Shown here: piece by piece, positions 332 through 5,602 of the stretch | Layout: every line of letters begins with the position of its first letter | How positions within the stretch are numbered: position 1 is the stretch's first letter | From: Evtepia sp. | GTDB lineage: Bacteria > Bacillota > Clostridia > Oscillospirales > Oscillospiraceae | NCBI GenBank assembly: GCA_029256465.1 | Contig: JAQSXW010000063.1 | Span: forward strand, 1-5,602 | Direction of reading: 5' to 3' | Length of the DNA stretch: 5,602 bases | Translations under genes and position numbers: made by a program | Notes under the pieces: model-generated | Told to the model about the DNA's origin: nothing | What the model saw: the letters and a program-made list of their open reading frames with translations, nothing else | The model's database searches: none

Positions 332-1546
332 TTATTGCATGGATGTGAGAATCGCGTTGGCCAGAGTCGCAAGCTCCGTTTCCTTGTCCGATCCGAGAGA
401 GGACGCTATGCTCACGCGTTCATTGAGCACGTTCATGTTCTTCATCTCCTCGCTTAAGAACTTCTGCATCAGGTCGCCAGACTTGACTGCCCAAGATCCA
501 TTTTCTATAACGGCTACCGTCCGGTTCTGAACATTCAGTGCCTTCATATGCATGAGGAAATTGTGCATGGACGGATACATTCCCAGATTATAAGTTACGG
601 AAGCCAGCACCATATGGCTGTATTTAAAGGACTCGGAAATCAGCTGAGAGACATCCGTAGAAGAAACGTCATAAATGGCAACGTTCGTCATGCCCTTGTC
701 GCAAAGCCTGGCAGCCAGGGCCTGGGCTACGGATTCGGTGTTGCCGTACATGGAAGCGTACGCCACGAGTACCCCTTTTTCCTCCGGCTCATAGCGGCTC
801 CAAGTGTCGTACTTCTGGATGAAATACTTGAGATCTTTGCGCCATACGGGTCCATGAAGAGGGCAAATGTACTTGATCTGGTCGAGGATAGCGCCTGCCT
901 TTTTCAGAAGAAGCTGAATATGCGGCCCATATTTCCCAACGATGTTGGTCAGATAGCGGCGGGCATCATCCAGCCAATCCCGATCGAAATTCACTTCGTC
1001 AGCAAATAGTTTGCCGTCCAACGCGCCAAAGGTTCCAAATGCGTCCGCGGAAAAAAGTACGCCGTTGGTGATATCGAAGGTCACCATGACCTCCGGCCAA
1101 TGAACCATGGGTGCAAAGACAAAGGTGACGGTATGCTTGCCAAAGCTGAAGGTATCGCCTTCCGCGACTTGGATGATTTCGTGGTCATCCACGTGGAACC
1201 CGAACTGACGCATCAGCATAAACGCCTTTTCATTGCTGATGACAACCACTTTGGGCCAGCGGAGCAGGATTTCCTCGATCGAACCGGCGTGATCCGGTTC
1301 CAGATGGTTGATAATCAGATAGTCCAGGGGCCGTCCGGCGAGAACATGCTCCATGTTTTCCAAGAGCTGTCGGCAGGCAGACCAATCTACGGTATCGAAC
1401 AGAGCCGTCTTTTCATCCAACAGAAGATAGGAGTTATAGGAAACGCCTCTGGGAATCGGATACGCATTTTCAAAGAGGGCGAGACGGTGGTCGTTGGCGC
1501 CCACCCAGTATAGATCTTCGGTCACATTTCTTACGTTGTACATCAT
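332..1546 (-). CDS. fprA: FprA-type flavodiiron protein (O2/NO reductase)
   Basis: Cytoplasmic flavodiiron protein, 404 residues, the usual length for the two-domain (class A) form. Residues 1-250 form the metallo-beta-lactamase-like diiron domain. Its ligand set is complete: H81, E83, D85 and H86 in the NHLEPDH motif, H149 in MVHWPE, D168 in LFSADAFG and H231 in PLHGPVW. Residues 258-404 are a flavodoxin domain with the FMN phosphate loop YASMYGNTE (263-271). Family members reduce O2 to water, and some reduce NO to N2O, using electrons from rubredoxin. There is no rubredoxin domain here, but the gene starts 15 bases after a gene whose protein ends in one. The two are likely co-transcribed and work as a donor-acceptor pair. 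It begins with two Met codons; the second (1541-1543) is better spaced from the Shine-Dalgarno. Whether O2 or NO is the physiological substrate cannot be read from sequence. Confidence 0.95.
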   Translation of the reverse strand: MMYNVRNVTEDLYWVGANDHRLALFENAYPIPRGVSYNSYLLLDEKTALFDTVDWSACRQLLENMEHVLAGRPLDYLIINHLEPDHAGSIEEILLRWPKVVVISNEKAFMLMRQFGFHVDDHEIIQVAEGDTFSFGKHTVTFVFAPMVHWPEVMVTFDITNGVLFSADAFGTFGALDGKLFADEVNFDRDWLDDARRYLTNIVGKYGPHIQLLLKKAGAILDQIKYICPLHGPVWRKDLKYFIQKYDTWSRYEPEEKGVLVAYASMYGNTESVAQALAARLCDKGMTNVAIYDVSSTDVSQLISESFKYSHMVLASVTYNLGMYPSMHNFLMHMKALNVQNRTVAVIENGSWAVKSGDLMQKFLSEEMKNMNVLNERVSIASSLGSDKETELATLANAILTSMQ

Positions 1547-1550
1547 TATT

Positions 1551-1557
1551 CCTCCTT
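1551..1557 (-). promoter_or_regulatory. Ribosome binding site of fprA, bearing on its start
   Basis: AAGGAGG lies entirely in the 15-base gap between the fusion gene and fprA. It is 4 bases from the first ATG (1544-1546), which is tight, and 7 bases from the second (1541-1543), which is ideal. The protein may therefore really start at the second Met (403 residues). The tight spacing suggests translation following on from the upstream gene. Confidence 0.8.
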
Positions 1558-1561
1558 CCGC

Positions 1562-3472
1562 TTATGCCTCAATAAATTGATCAACGGCCTCGGCACACTC
1601 AGGGCAGACCCAGCCTTCTGGAAGATCCTTGAACAGTGTGCCTGGTGCCACTCCGCTTTCCTCATCGCCCTCATCCGGCACATACTCGTAACCGCAGCCG
1701 CTGCACACGTAACGGGGGCCGATTGGCTCCGGCTTGGGCATCTGTGGTCTCTTCATCTTCACCATGGGAGGTGCGGTCTGCTTCTCACCGGTATCCAGCG
1801 CGGCTGCCAAAAGAGGCAGAATCTCATTCACATCCCCCACGATTCCATAGTCACAGTTCTTGAAAATCGGCGCGTTGCCGTTTTTGTTGATAGCCACAAT
1901 GATGGAGGCATCCTTAATACCCTTGAGGTGCTGGCTGGCGCCGGAGATGCCGCAGGCGATGTATAGATTCCCGGTGAATTTCTGGCCGGACATACCGACA
2001 TAACGGTTCAAAGGCAGATACTTCAGCGTCTCAGCAACAGGACGGGAGGAAGCAACGGCTGCGCCGGCGGCCTTCGCAAGGTTTTCCACCAACTTCATAT
2101 TTTTTTTCTCTCCGATGCCCTTACCGGCTGACACCACGCGTTCCGCTTGGGCGATGGGTGTATCCATGGGAATGCCGACCGTGAAATCAAAGCCATCCTT
2201 TTTCAGTGCTTCCACCAGCGAAGCGACCTGAGCCTTGGCATCGCCGTCGCGGAATATCTCCTTCTTACGGATGCCTGTGATGGGCGCAGGCTTCTTGGGA
2301 AGGCTGGAGGAGGAACCAGCCTCCTTGGGCTGCTTGCCCAAAATGTGCGAAGCAATCACCATACGCTGGATTTCATTTGTACCCTCATAGATTGTGGTAA
2401 TCTTGGCATCGCGGTACATCCGCTCCACTTCCATACCCTTGAGATAGCCGGAGCCGCCGAAGATCTGCAGCGCATCATTGGTGACCTCCAACGCAATGTC
2501 GGAGGCATATTGTTTGGCCATGGCGGATTCCATACCGAAGGGTTCGTGATGCTCCTTGAGCTCTGCTGCAGAGTAGACGAGGAACCGGGCGGTGCGCAGT
2601 TTAGTAGCCATGTCAGCAATCTTGAATGAAATCGCCTGATGGAAGCCGATGGGCTTACCGAACTGGACGCGCTCCTTGGCATAATCCACCGCCTGATCGA
2701 ATGCACCCTGAGCAATGCCCAGCGCCTGCGCCGCGATGCCGATACGGCCGCCGTCCAGCGTAGCCATGGCGATCTTAAAGCCATCGCCTTCCTTGCCCAG
2801 AAGGTTCTCCTTGGGAACCTTTACGTCGTTGAACAGAAGCTCCGCAGTGGAAGAGGAACGGATACCCATCTTGTCATAGTGGTCCCCGAACGCAAAGCCT
2901 TTCCAGCCCTTTTCCAGAATGAAGGCGGAGATGCCGCGGGTACCGATGTCGGGAGTCGTAACCGCAAAGATCACATAGGTATCGGCCTTGGGGGCGTTGG
3001 TAATGAAAACCTTTCCGCCGTTTAGGAGATAATAGTCTCCCTTGTCCACGGCAGTGGTCTCGGTGCCGCCGGCATCGGAACCGGCGTTGGGTTCTGTCAG
3101 GCCGAAAGCGCCGATCTTTTCACCATTGCATAGAGGGATCAGATACTTTTGCTTTTGTGTTTCATTGCCGAACGCAAAGATGGGCCAAGTACCCAGTGAT
3201 GTGTGTGCGGACAGAATCACGCCCGAACCGCCGTCCACCCGGGCCAGCTCCTCCACCGCGATGGCATAGCTGATCATATCCAGTCCTGCACCACCGTACT
3301 CCTTTGGAAAGGGAATTCCCATAAGGCCCATTTTGCCCAGCTTAGCCACCGCGTCATCGGGAAACTCGTTCTCCTTGTCCATGAGGAAGGCCAAGGACCT
3401 AATTTCTTCCTCCGCGAATGTTCGGACCTTGGCTCGGAGCAATTCCTGCTGTTGTGTGATCGTAAATAACAT
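1562..3472 (-). CDS. Acyl-CoA dehydrogenase - EtfA FAD domain - rubredoxin fusion
   Basis: A 636-residue, three-module flavo-iron protein, probably cytoplasmic. Residues 1-384 are a complete short-chain-type acyl-CoA dehydrogenase. They carry the flavin motif AFGLTEPNAGSD, KVFITN, LDGGRIGIAAQALGIA, ERVQFGKP, and YEGTNEIQR with the expected catalytic base at E363. After an SSSS/Pro linker, residues about 444-558 match the C-terminal FAD-binding domain of EtfA: SR at 476-477, GMSGQ, GISGASQHL (508-516), AINKNGNAPIF and DYGIVGD. A Pro/Lys linker (564-586) leads to a rubredoxin (587-636) with Cys 590, 593, 623 and 626. The EtfA N-terminal domain and EtfB are absent. Inferred job: oxidise an acyl-CoA, perhaps butyryl-CoA, and pass electrons by way of FAD to rubredoxin and then FprA, encoded next. 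The start at 3472 was chosen for its AGGAGG 8 bases upstream and its match to normal dehydrogenase N-termini. The reading frame stays open 17 codons further upstream, to 3523, but that stretch overlaps the operator and Shine-Dalgarno. Confidence 0.93.
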   Translation of the reverse strand: MLFTITQQQELLRAKVRTFAEEEIRSLAFLMDKENEFPDDAVAKLGKMGLMGIPFPKEYGGAGLDMISYAIAVEELARVDGGSGVILSAHTSLGTWPIFAFGNETQKQKYLIPLCNGEKIGAFGLTEPNAGSDAGGTETTAVDKGDYYLLNGGKVFITNAPKADTYVIFAVTTPDIGTRGISAFILEKGWKGFAFGDHYDKMGIRSSSTAELLFNDVKVPKENLLGKEGDGFKIAMATLDGGRIGIAAQALGIAQGAFDQAVDYAKERVQFGKPIGFHQAISFKIADMATKLRTARFLVYSAAELKEHHEPFGMESAMAKQYASDIALEVTNDALQIFGGSGYLKGMEVERMYRDAKITTIYEGTNEIQRMVIASHILGKQPKEAGSSSSLPKKPAPITGIRKKEIFRDGDAKAQVASLVEALKKDGFDFTVGIPMDTPIAQAERVVSAGKGIGEKKNMKLVENLAKAAGAAVASSRPVAETLKYLPLNRYVGMSGQKFTGNLYIACGISGASQHLKGIKDASIIVAINKNGNAPIFKNCDYGIVGDVNEILPLLAAALDTGEKQTAPPMVKMKRPQMPKPEPIGPRYVCSGCGYEYVPDEGDEESGVAPGTLFKDLPEGWVCPECAEAVDQFIEA

Positions 3473-3498: not shown

Positions 3499-3504
3499 AT
3501 AATA
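3499..3504 (-). promoter_or_regulatory. Candidate -10 element for the fusion gene and fprA
   Basis: TATTAT (5 of 6 match to TATAAT) lies 26 bases before the start codon, which leaves a short leader containing the ribosome site. No good -35 hexamer lies 16-18 bases upstream. The promoter may therefore be weak, activator-dependent or not real, with read-through from the regulator gene as the alternative. It overlaps the operator-like sequence at 3502-3526. Confidence 0.35.
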
Positions 3505-3526
3505 CTTGACAAGATTTATCCACTAT
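3502..3526 (+). promoter_or_regulatory. Operator-like site A upstream of the fusion gene (Rrf2/IscR-type)
   Basis: A 25-bp imperfect inverted repeat whose left half, ATACTTGAC, fits the ATASYYGAC half-site known for IscR type 1 sites. The right half ends in TCCACTAT and fits the mirrored half-site at most positions. It shares ATAATACTTGACAA (3499-3512) and a following TATCCA, at the same spacing, with the site in the regulator's own promoter. It overlaps the candidate -10 of the fusion gene. Binding by the local Rrf2 protein is inferred. Confidence 0.6.
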
Positions 3527-3532
3527 GTTTGC

Positions 3533-3558
3533 AAAAAAATTACCTACTCGCCGAATAG
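3533..3558 (-). terminator. Weak intrinsic terminator or attenuator after the regulator gene
   Basis: On the minus strand CTATTC (3558-3553), loop GGC and GAGTAG (3549-3544) form a 6-bp stem with one T-G pair, overlapping the regulator's TAG stop. TTTTTTT (3539-3533) follows after four bases. The stem is short, so termination would be partial. It would lower read-through from the regulator into the fusion gene and fits a separate promoter for the latter. Confidence 0.4.
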
Positions 3559-3954
3559 TATTTTCTGTAAGCTGTGCGTATCCAGTTCCTCATTCAGCTT
3601 CTTCTGAATAGACGACAAGTGATTATGAGCATGACACAAGTCATTCCCATGGGCTTTGCGCCACTCGCATTGATAACTTGGTTTCATGCAGGAACTGACC
3701 GAGAAACCTTCCTCCATGATCTGCATTAAGCGGTACAGGGTTACCTTCTCCAGTTCCGTTGCAAGAACGTAGCCGCCACCCGCCCCCCGCAAGATGTGGA
3801 TGATGCCGCCTTTCTGGAGCTTTTTTAGAATTTTGTAGGCAAATTGCTTTGGAATCTGCTCATTCCGAGCCAACTCTTCCGCAGTCAGGTGTACCCCGTC
3901 TGTAAGTGCCCGCAGTATCCGCAGTGCATAGTCCGTTTCCTTTGTAATCAGCAA
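3544..3954 (-). CDS. Rrf2-family transcriptional regulator with three candidate cluster cysteines
   Basis: A 136-residue DNA-binding regulator of normal length for Rrf2/IscR/NsrR proteins. Residues 1-65 are the winged helix: the typical N-terminus LLITKETDYALRILRAL, a recognition helix around 34-46 (IPKQFAYKILKKL) and a wing with RGAGGGYVLA (56-65). A long helix follows. C89, C96 and C107 lie where IscR and NsrR hold an iron-sulfur cluster, but their spacing (six then ten residues) differs from IscR (five and five); H108, H110 and H112 adjoin. The start is TTG at 3952-3954, with GGAGG 8 bases upstream and a family-like N-terminus. A further upstream TTG at 4005 falls inside the -35 box and is unlikely. 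It probably represses its own gene and the fusion-fprA pair in response to O2, NO or cluster status. This is inferred from context and shared operators, and the signal is unknown. Confidence 0.9.
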   Translation of the reverse strand: MLITKETDYALRILRALTDGVHLTAEELARNEQIPKQFAYKILKKLQKGGIIHILRGAGGGYVLATELEKVTLYRLMQIMEEGFSVSSCMKPSYQCEWRKAHGNDLCHAHNHLSSIQKKLNEELDTHSLQKILFGE

Positions 3955-3976: not shown

Positions 3977-4005
3977 ACTGTATCAAACTGGATATAATTT
4001 GTCAA
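3977..4005 (-). promoter_or_regulatory. Promoter of the Rrf2 regulator gene
   Basis: A perfect -35 TTGACA (4005-4000) and a -10 TACAGT (3982-3977, 4 of 6) are separated by 17 bases. Initiation around 3970 would leave a leader of only about 16 bases, filled by the AAAGGAGG ribosome site. The -35 and spacer lie inside operator-like site B, which fits autorepression. Confidence 0.65.
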
Positions 4006-4009
4006 GTAT
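3985..4009 (-). promoter_or_regulatory. Operator-like site B in the regulator promoter (Rrf2/IscR-type)
   Basis: On the minus strand it begins ATACTTGACAAATTAT and ends TATCCAGTTT, a 25-bp imperfect inverted repeat. The ATACTTGAC half matches the IscR type 1 half-site. The second half matches it partly, at about six of ten positions. It covers the -35 and spacer of the regulator promoter and is near-identical to site A at 3502-3526. The position suggests autorepression. Confidence 0.6.
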
Positions 4010-4182: not shown

Positions 4183-4335
4183 ATGAAGTATGAGTGCCCA
4201 TGCGGTTACGTCTATGATCCAAGCGAGGGCGATCCTGAAAACGGTATTGCTCCTGGAACTGACTTCGAAAGCCTCCCTGATGATTGGGTTTGCCCTGTAT
4301 GCGGAGCAGATAAAAGCGTTTTTGAAGCACTTTGA
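4183..4335 (+). CDS. Rubredoxin (stand-alone, 50 residues, CxCG first knuckle)
   Basis: A small cytoplasmic one-iron electron carrier, of typical size for a rubredoxin. It carries GYVYDP (8-13), [12 protein letters not shown] (15-26), [12 protein letters not shown] and a C-terminal phenylalanine region. The iron cysteines are C5, C7, C37 and C40. The first pair reads C-P-C-G-Y, one residue shorter than the usual C-x-x-C-G-Y, while the second pair (CPVCG) is normal. A Shine-Dalgarno AAAAGGAG ends 8 bases before the ATG. It is divergent from the regulator cluster and convergent with the NorV-like gene, whose product lacks its own rubredoxin. It may supply electrons to either flavodiiron protein in the window. 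The family call is secure; the partner is inferred. Confidence 0.93.
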
Positions 4336-4433: not shown

Positions 4434-5602
4434 TTACAGTTTTGCAATTCTTTTGCCGTATTCTATTGCTGATCTCGTTGCATCTTGATCGGGGTTCCAT
4501 AGATTTTTATAGCCTTCATCCATCATCTGAAAACCTGCATTTTCCATGAGTTCATTCATGACTTTTACGCTTTCTCCGCTCCAGCCATAACATCCAAAAG
4601 CTGCAAACTTTTTATTCTTAAATTTTAGAGATTGCATCAGACTAATGAATCCAGCTACGGAATGCAAAATTCCGTTTGAATACGTCGGAGAACCAATCAT
4701 TACTGCTTTGGATTTGAAAACTTCGGTAATGATATCATTCTCATCATGCTTAGCAATATTATAAACCTTAACAACCACAGTGGGGTCTTCCAGCTCGATG
4801 CCTTCTGCAATCTGTTCTGCCAAAACCTTTGTTCCGTTCCACATCGTATCATAAACGATGGTAATTTGATTTTCCTGATAATCGTTAGCCCACTGAGTAT
4901 ATTTTTCAATAATTTGCAGGGGGTTTTCACGCCAAATGATACCATGGCTTGTCGCAATCATATCAACCTGCAAATTCAAGGACATAATCTCTTCTAGCTT
5001 TTTTCTAAGCATTGCGCTAAATGGGGTTAAAATATTTGCATAATATTTGATTGCTTCGCTAAAAAGGTCACAGGGATCAACTAAGTCATTAAATAGCTTT
5101 TCACTTGCATAATGTTGTCCAAATGCATCATTGCTGAATAGAATATGATCTTTTGTCAAATAAGTTGCCATGCTATCTGGCCAATGCAGCATTCGCATTT
5201 CAACGAAAATTAGTTCTTTTCCATTGCCTACTTCCAGTTTATCCCCCGTCTTGACCATATGGAAATTCCAATCTTGATGAAATTGTCCTTTCAATGATTT
5301 AACTGCGTTCGATGTGCAATAAATAGGCTTATCTGGGATACGCTTCATAAGCTCAGGTAACGCTCCGCTATGATCAATTTCGCCATGATTGACAATAATA
5401 TAATCAATTTGATTCAGGTCAATTTCTTTAGATAAGTTCTCAACAAATTCCTGGGCATATGGAATCCAAACCGTATCAATGAGTACCGTTTTTTCTTCTT
5501 GAATTAAATAAGAATTGTAGGAAGAGCCTTTATGGGTTGAATATTCTTCTCCATGAAACTTCTTTAGCTCCCAATCAACCTTGCCGACCCAATATACATT
5601 GT
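4434..5602 (-). CDS. NorV-like flavodiiron protein core, N-terminus outside the window
   Basis: A second flavodiiron protein with 388 residues visible. The frame is open to the window edge, so the ATG at 5348 is internal, not the start. By alignment from memory with E. coli NorV (GSSYNSYLI, EKxVLIDTV, IPDxPIYCT, MLHWPDSM, LFSNDAFGQHY, YYANILTPF, VDMIATSHG), about seven N-terminal residues are missing. Diiron ligands in visible numbering are H72, E74, D76 and H77 (HGEIDH), H139, D158 and H219. The flavodoxin domain starts near residue 245 with YDTMWNGT (250-257) and has FGCYGWSGES later. It ends at RIAKL, where NorV would continue into its rubredoxin domain. NorV reduces NO to N2O anaerobically; relatives also reduce O2. 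The convergent rubredoxin gene next door is a natural electron donor. The gene is much more AT-rich than fprA. Family is certain; NO versus O2 preference is inferred from similarity only. Confidence 0.93.
   Translation of the reverse strand, partial: NVYWVGKVDWELKKFHGEEYSTHKGSSYNSYLIQEEKTVLIDTVWIPYAQEFVENLSKEIDLNQIDYIIVNHGEIDHSGALPELMKRIPDKPIYCTSNAVKSLKGQFHQDWNFHMVKTGDKLEVGNGKELIFVEMRMLHWPDSMATYLTKDHILFSNDAFGQHYASEKLFNDLVDPCDLFSEAIKYYANILTPFSAMLRKKLEEIMSLNLQVDMIATSHGIIWRENPLQIIEKYTQWANDYQENQITIVYDTMWNGTKVLAEQIAEGIELEDPTVVVKVYNIAKHDENDIITEVFKSKAVMIGSPTYSNGILHSVAGFISLMQSLKFKNKKFAAFGCYGWSGESVKVMNELMENAGFQMMDEGYKNLWNPDQDATRSAIEYGKRIAKL

Follow-up and report, generated by a model that had tools for sequence, protein, structure and literature searches.

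Butyryl-CoA oxygen oxidoreductase (BOOR) of Fusobacterium nucleatum consists of a fusion protein, BCR, and an adjacent flavodiiron protein (FDP), encoded by FN1423-FN1424 (PMC12288474). The primary study is Bystrom & Wolthers 2024, as cited in that review. Both proteins form an alpha4beta4 complex which oxidizes butyryl-CoA to crotonyl-CoA and reduces O2 to water (PMC12288474). In anaerobes, including butyrate producers, BOOR makes O2 an acceptor for butyryl-CoA rather than a poison. Since butyryl-CoA can thereby donate to O2, control of BOOR would tie oxygen to butyrate output. We analyzed a 5,602-bp stretch of Evtepia sp. (contig JAQSXW010000063.1, C46, here named the window), which encodes a fusion of acyl-CoA dehydrogenase, EtfA and rubredoxin next to an FDP. 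A first-pass annotation had left open whether such a fusion was already characterized; according to the same review it was published in 2024 as BOOR (PMC12288474). Judged by sequence, the enzyme pair and its known regulator neighbour make the window an ordinary and well-formed example of this recently described kind. Furthermore, the homologues very probably oxidize a butyryl-CoA-type acyl-CoA and reduce O2 to water under the control of a likely Fe-S cluster regulator of the Rrf2 family. For this reading the genes, domains, ligands, gene order, conservation and two operator-like sites come from the present analysis, and the chemistry and the complex from the published homologue.

The window spans its entire contig, and the assembly comprises 873,951 bp in 130 contigs with a completeness of 54.28%. 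In the direction of transcription, the minus strand carries a second FDP of the canonical type, cut by the contig end, followed by the Rrf2 gene, the BCR fusion and the divergent FDP. A free rubredoxin gene is located on the plus strand. The spacing is 71 bp between rrf2 and BCR and 15 bp between BCR and FDP.

The BCR-type fusion (1562..3472, minus strand, 636 aa) starts with an ATG at 3472 directly preceded by GGAGG and ends with the stop at 1562; an alternative GTG extension to 3523 is possible. Pfam identified Acyl-CoA_dh_N, _M and _1 (E values 6.5e-39, 2.2e-23 and 1.7e-53, respectively) and, in a 653-aa numbering, ETF_alpha at 457-537 (2.3e-26) and Rubredoxin at 604-650 (2.2e-17). In the 636-aa numbering the dehydrogenase part covers residues 6-377 (2342..3457, minus strand) with the motif YEGTNE at 362-367, in which we take Glu363 to be the catalytic residue. 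EtfA domain II (residues about 440-559; 1796..2155, minus strand) carries SSRP at 475, GMSGQ at 493 and GISGASQH at 508, presumably the motifs of FAD contact. The rubredoxin domain (residues 587-633; 1574..1714, minus strand) has all four Cys (590, 593, 623 and 626). Within the window, profile searches gave no match for EtfA domain I or EtfB.

The adjacent gene (332..1546, minus strand) encodes a class-A flavodiiron protein (FDP/FprA) of 404 aa, the predicted O2-reducing subunit, with an ODP beta-lactamase domain (5.2e-18) and Flavodoxin_1/5 according to Pfam. All diiron motifs are present (HLEPDH 81, MVHWP 147, DAFG 168 and PLHG 229), whose residues H-E-D-H, H, D and H are presumably the diiron ligands. 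By pattern, these motifs were complete in 95 of 100 FDPs sharing at least 55% identity (97 distinct). The pairing of a three-domain fusion with an adjacent FprA, as proposed in the first-pass annotation, thus holds for both genes, their strand, their Pfam domains and their 15-bp gap. Over its full length (636 aa) the BCR of the window shares 73% identity with that of Fusobacterium gastrosuis.

The architecture of dehydrogenase, ETF_alpha and rubredoxin was found in all 120 listed proteins, being the best 120 of 5702 significant matches; by this sequence evidence it is not a product of chance. A contig scan of genomes confirmed at least 580 candidate stretches. The best 80 loci were kept, comprising 66 BCR fusions (L033-L097 and L099) and 14 plain dehydrogenases (L098 and L100-L112). 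In 62 of the 66 named loci BCR is followed downstream, on its own strand, by an FDP; the distance is at most 150 bp in 57 loci and never exceeds 0.9 kb. Three of the four misses are due to contig ends: L093 and L097, in both of which BCR itself is cut, and L059, whose contig stops 440 bp downstream. The fourth, L085, is a true exception. Bacillota, Fusobacterium, Brachyspira and one Synergistaceae metagenome-assembled genome (MAG) are among the carriers of this named set. Among the relatives of the window (L004-L013) the FDP was present in 8 of 10; L012 is cut, and L013 had no FDP match in its genome. We also sampled 393 genomes of the same class as the window, its own included and the others at least 90% complete. 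The EtfA-rubredoxin part occurred in 36 of these genomes and in 24 of 220 genera, and FDP was found beside BCR in 36/36 carriers (30, 5 further loci and G409, which equals L199). With the 29 of 29 fusion loci of Anaerococcus that also have an adjacent FDP, the search for the architecture and its fprA neighbour across genomes, as suggested in the first-pass annotation, revealed a conserved arrangement, whose absence would have spoken against the proposed pathway.

This adjacency bears on the direction of the reaction. Among NCBIfam models, the dehydrogenase part fits the acryloyl-CoA reductase AcrC best, although below the cut-off (489 of 640 bits), and the fusion could then work in reverse as a rubredoxin-fed enoyl-CoA reductase with FprA as an unrelated neighbour. 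FDP adjoins BCR at nearly all loci examined, however, and the published homologue oxidizes butyryl-CoA in a complex with FDP (PMC12288474), so that we hold the reverse reaction to be extremely improbable.

As side observations, some fusions consist of dehydrogenase and EtfA without rubredoxin. In a Tissierellia MAG (L087:86-1771) the fusion stops before the rubredoxin, and a BOOR-type FDP lies approximately 110 bp downstream. In L013 and L217 no FDP was present within the fetched stretch. Several Anaerococcus genomes hold such a dehydrogenase-EtfA paralogue lacking rubredoxin.

A regulator of the Rrf2 family (3544..3954, minus strand, 136 aa, TTG start; Pfam Rrf2 5.2e-25) precedes BCR in the window. 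It carries Asp8 and Cys89, Cys96 and Cys107. The neighbourhood as such is already in print: according to the accessible part of a preprint, the Rrf2 regulator C0FN14 of Roseburia adjoins BOOR and has homologues in Eisenbergiella and Faecalibacterium, and 123 of the 149 neighbourhoods in one Rrf2 cluster contain BCR (PMC13404960). Its main text, as far as accessible, contains no mention of an operator, binding site, motif, palindrome or promoter (PMC13404960).

We surveyed 77 fusion loci, namely the 66 named loci, the window and L004-L013. A usable BCR start was available in 73 (L011, L053, L077 and L078 were dropped), and an Rrf2-like gene was located within 1 kb upstream of BCR in 26 of these. 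The three-Cys motif was present in 25 of the 26; the exception, L051, lies 639 bp off and was dropped, resulting in 25/25. At the BOOR locus of F. gastrosuis the sole Rrf2-like match was weak, 639 bp off and without the three Cys.

Inspection of the regions upstream of BOOR loci led to the operator pattern CTTGACANNNNNNRTCNA, a 25-bp dyad of which inverted copies flank rrf2 in the window. Site 1, ATACTTGACAAATTATATCCAGTTT (3985..4009, minus strand), lies over the predicted rrf2 promoter (-35 TTGACA at 4005-4000, -10 TACAGT at 3982-3977), covering the -35 box and the spacer. Site 2, ATACTTGACAAGATTTATCCACTAT (3502..3526, plus strand), is the inverted copy in the gap between rrf2 and bcr. Exact sites were found in 12 of 24 regions upstream of rrf2, in 3 of 24 rrf2-bcr gaps and in none of 46 regions upstream of a BCR without rrf2. 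When one mismatch was allowed, the numbers were 14/24, 6/24 and 2/46, respectively. Dinucleotide shuffles gave mean numbers of loci with an exact site of 0.01, 0.0 and 0.01 for the three sets. L040, at a contig end, was left out of the 24-locus sets; the set of 46 counts L051 and drops L079 and L087 as too short. As far as we have seen, this operator-like site goes beyond what is in print; for the known neighbourhood of Rrf2 and BOOR it offers a concrete candidate DNA target.

Several results weigh against this reading of enzyme and switch. The Fusobacterium comparison was made with the BCR of F. gastrosuis and not with that of F. nucleatum itself. In Allobaculum mucilyticum (L085:5932-7869) the rubredoxin of BCR is intact, yet no FDP gene adjoins that of BCR; the sole FDP match sits elsewhere in the genome and is 44% identical. 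No rrf2 was scored in 48 of the 73 loci, and therefore the switch is not general. The shuffle statistics are not independent, because the pattern was read from those very loci. Its left half coincides with a sigma-70 -35 box. At least two mismatches were present in 10 of the 24 regions upstream of rrf2, including five Oscillibacter-type loci, and in the window itself the five sites at up to two mismatches are few more than the chance mean of 2.66; 23 of 200 shuffles reach five. A promoter scan of the whole window predicted 7 promoters, with a shuffle mean of 7.2. On the other hand, a promoter accounts neither for the right half of the dyad nor for the inverted copy between rrf2 and bcr.

The five Oscillibacter-type loci (L046, L047, L049, L050 and L052) have three-Cys Rrf2 genes and no CTTGACANNNNNNRTCNA site. 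Upstream of rrf2 in L047, L049, L050 and L052 a different, common dyad-like stretch follows the -10 box, by eye about ACYAAAAWRGTACTRTTTAG, to which L046 shows a weaker likeness. This stretch is perhaps a second operator type.

On the scale of genomes, the recovered genome of the window (874 kb, 54% complete) contained two exact sites, both at the BOOR locus, whereas a reversed-pattern control gave none. In the L034 genome (3.2 Mb) the number was again two, and the BOOR locus held both. Fifteen genomes were searched, 14 of them chosen for a loose match at the locus and L005 for a near match. Since the choice was made by a match at the locus, only the scarcity elsewhere is informative. Of 40 exact matches, 14 were located at BOOR loci, spread over 12 genomes, while the loci of L005, L069 and L073 had none. 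The remaining 26 were fewer than the 40 matches of the reversed control, a broad regulon was thus rejected, and we claim none beyond BOOR. The ORF listings around the non-BOOR sites L118, L134, L122 and L123 gave no clear O2-related target.

A further site was found in G104, a Lachnospiraceae MAG with BOOR and rrf2. Here a perfect palindrome, CTATTCTTGACA-N5-TGTCAAGAATAG with 12-bp arms (L131:1496-1524), lies upstream of cydA, the gene of cytochrome bd oxidase subunit I. Which gene it would serve is not certain, since a divergent MFS transporter gene lies on its other side. A match at cydA was present in one of 20 genomes (G104) and is therefore a single case.

This site, preceding the gene of an O2 reductase, also bears on the question of whether the pair might reduce NO, or NO together with O2, with an NsrR-like regulator exerting nitrosative control. 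FDPs of anaerobes reduce O2 and/or NO (PMC12288474), and the Asp8 found in the window regulator is a cluster ligand in NsrR (preprint PMC13404960). However, according to the review, the F. nucleatum complex had no NO reductase activity (PMC12288474). The NsrR motif gATGyAT-N5-ATrCATc gave two matches with two mismatches in the window against a chance mean of 1.16, both inside the second FDP gene. The FDP of the pair scored 215.1 bits with NF008887 (anaerobic NO reductase flavorubredoxin), under the curated cut-off of 635. With the published lack of NO activity and the motif at chance level, a NO reductase was discarded as the principal function, and we judge NO reduction under nitrosative control improbable. 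The acyl-CoA-driven O2/NO reductase of the first-pass annotation accordingly stands in its O2 part, which agrees with the F. nucleatum homologue (PMC12288474) and the 73% identity to F. gastrosuis, and is not supported in its NO part.

The same annotation had stated that every cofactor step is encoded by the two genes. The motifs and four rubredoxin Cys of the window agree with this, with a caveat from Anaerococcus, in which the rubredoxin Cys are gone and the rest is kept. A full rubredoxin domain without the Cys occurred in four of 99 single-segment fusions (97 distinct), all in this one genus. The rubredoxin pattern flagged eight of the 99: these four, two without the domain (L087 and L013) and two false cases with all Cys kept (L039 and L079). 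A full fusion was present in 29 of 31 Anaerococcus genomes (loci L074, L075, L094, L178 and L188-L216). In all 29 (28 distinct) Asp, Ser, Ser and Ser replace the four Cys, the changed residues being located in the C-terminal 60 residues of BCR. Over 130 fusion sequences (127 distinct) the rubredoxin states were 98 CCCC and 29 DSSS, and 3 sequences had no such domain. A tree that left out the rubredoxin columns placed the 29 DSSS sequences in one clade (support 1.0) with the CCCC sequence L082 as sister (0.864).

The altered domain remains under purifying selection: its dN/dS (Nei-Gojobori, pooled pairs) was 0.103, compared with 0.091 for EtfA and 0.061 for the dehydrogenase at a dS of about 0.9. 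A structural model (pLDDT 85.8) matched the rubredoxin of D. gigas with a TM score of 0.84 (query length) and an rmsd of 0.9. YEGTNE and the FDP diiron ligand motifs were complete in 29/29. Initial patterns had suggested a loss of the FAD-site motifs in Anaerococcus (0/29); this was a pattern artefact and was rejected, since SSRPVAE and GVSGAGQH of EtfA are each kept in 29/29. A free rubredoxin was found in 31/31 Anaerococcus genomes, and its four Cys were present at all 30 loci checked. Exchange of all four Cys for Ser was reported to yield a rubredoxin resembling the apo form (PMC3945938, accessible in part, where it is cited as 'Rubredoxin Variant Folds without Iron'). Literature on Anaerococcus rubredoxin or on lost rubredoxin Cys gave nothing relevant by title in a search mostly outside subscription papers, which leaves absence unproven. 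As far as we have seen, this natural Cys-free rubredoxin variant goes beyond what is in print.

The Anaerococcus domain offers a natural test of the part played by the fused rubredoxin: its iron may be needed to carry electrons, or the domain may do no more than dock the enzymes. In the latter case the iron would be no obligatory relay and the domain mainly a docking arm, with electrons passing from EtfA FAD to FDP FMN directly or via free rubredoxin. The uniform D, S, S, S state in a single fully supported clade, the dN/dS of the domain close to that of EtfA, the adjacent FDP with its ligands and the intact EtfA motifs are consistent with it, as is the Tissierellia MAG L087, which lacks the domain and keeps the FDP. 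On the other hand, four Cys in 98 of the 130 sequences argue that iron is normally used, the free rubredoxin of all 31 genomes could stand in, and the Anaerococcus enzyme might have changed its function. We regard the docking role as conceivable, if somewhat doubtful; the rubredoxin iron step may be dispensable in BOOR. A joint reading, in which BOOR runs without rubredoxin iron, the Anaerococcus domain is a docking arm, more a tether than a wire, and the 25-bp dyad of a dedicated Fe-S Rrf2 repressor can also reach other O2 reductases such as cytochrome bd, is offered tentatively and would seem rather unlikely as a whole. In it, the EtfA FAD would hand electrons straight to the FMN of FDP, or free rubredoxin would carry them.

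Returning to BOOR as an iron-relayed, Rrf2-controlled O2 reductase, we infer for the window organism the substrate, the activity, the DNA binding and the sensing. The pair would convert butyryl-CoA, or a similar short-chain acyl-CoA, to enoyl-CoA and pass the electrons to O2, yielding water. By analogy with F. nucleatum the predicted route leads from acyl-CoA via dehydrogenase FAD, EtfA-domain FAD, rubredoxin iron, FDP FMN and the diiron site to O2; NO is probably no substrate. The enoyl-CoA would be re-reduced by bifurcating Bcd-Etf, a step proposed to conserve energy in F. nucleatum. A redox-sensitive Fe-S cluster is probably bound by Asp8 and the three Cys of the Rrf2 protein, which likely acts as a repressor of its own promoter through site 1 and would also act on bcr-fdp via the inverted site 2. 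Damage to the cluster by O2 or oxidants would then induce the operon.

Two further genes complete the window. The free rubredoxin (4183..4335, plus strand, 50 aa; Pfam Rubredoxin 3.9e-23) has four Cys. The second FDP (4434..5600, minus strand), of canonical type and lacking its 5' end at the contig end, shares 30% identity with the FDP of the pair. With 677.7 bits it exceeds the NF008887 cut-off of 635; since it fits the model of NO reductase flavorubredoxins, the reduction of NO and O2 may be divided between this protein and the BOOR FDP. Its GC content is 37%, compared with 51-55% for the BOOR pair and 46% for 56 kb of the genome. As evidence for acquisition from elsewhere, this low value is offset by the 55% of BCR, which deviates equally in the opposite direction.

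Compared with known systems, the pair of the window shares with the BOOR of F. nucleatum the same three-domain fusion and an adjoining class-A FDP. The window differs in having an Rrf2 gene and two operator-like sites ahead of bcr. Its FDP has the domains and ligand motifs of the class-A FDP/FprA fed by NAD(P)H via rubredoxin, whereas the predicted donor here is acyl-CoA through the fused EtfA-rubredoxin. The regulator resembles C0FN14 of Roseburia in its three Cys, in Asp8 and in its position beside BCR-FDP. With IscR and its type 1 sites the regulator and its putative sites have the Rrf2 family, a Cys-bound cluster, predicted for the window, and inverted repeats in common. The spacing GAC-N7-GTC is that of type 1 IscR sites, which read GACT..AGTC; the window sites differ, reading GACA..TGTC and being located at an O2 reductase operon. 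Inverted repeats of good conservation make up the type 1 sites, and the promoters that carry them are repressed (PMC8593673, accessible in part). The rubredoxin domain of Anaerococcus finally has a counterpart among designed proteins, namely an iron-free rubredoxin (PDB 1qcv). This protein is PFRD-XC4, which we take to be the variant of Strop & Mayo. PFRD-XC4 was engineered, whereas the Anaerococcus domain is natural, forms part of BCR and is present in every examined fusion of the genus.

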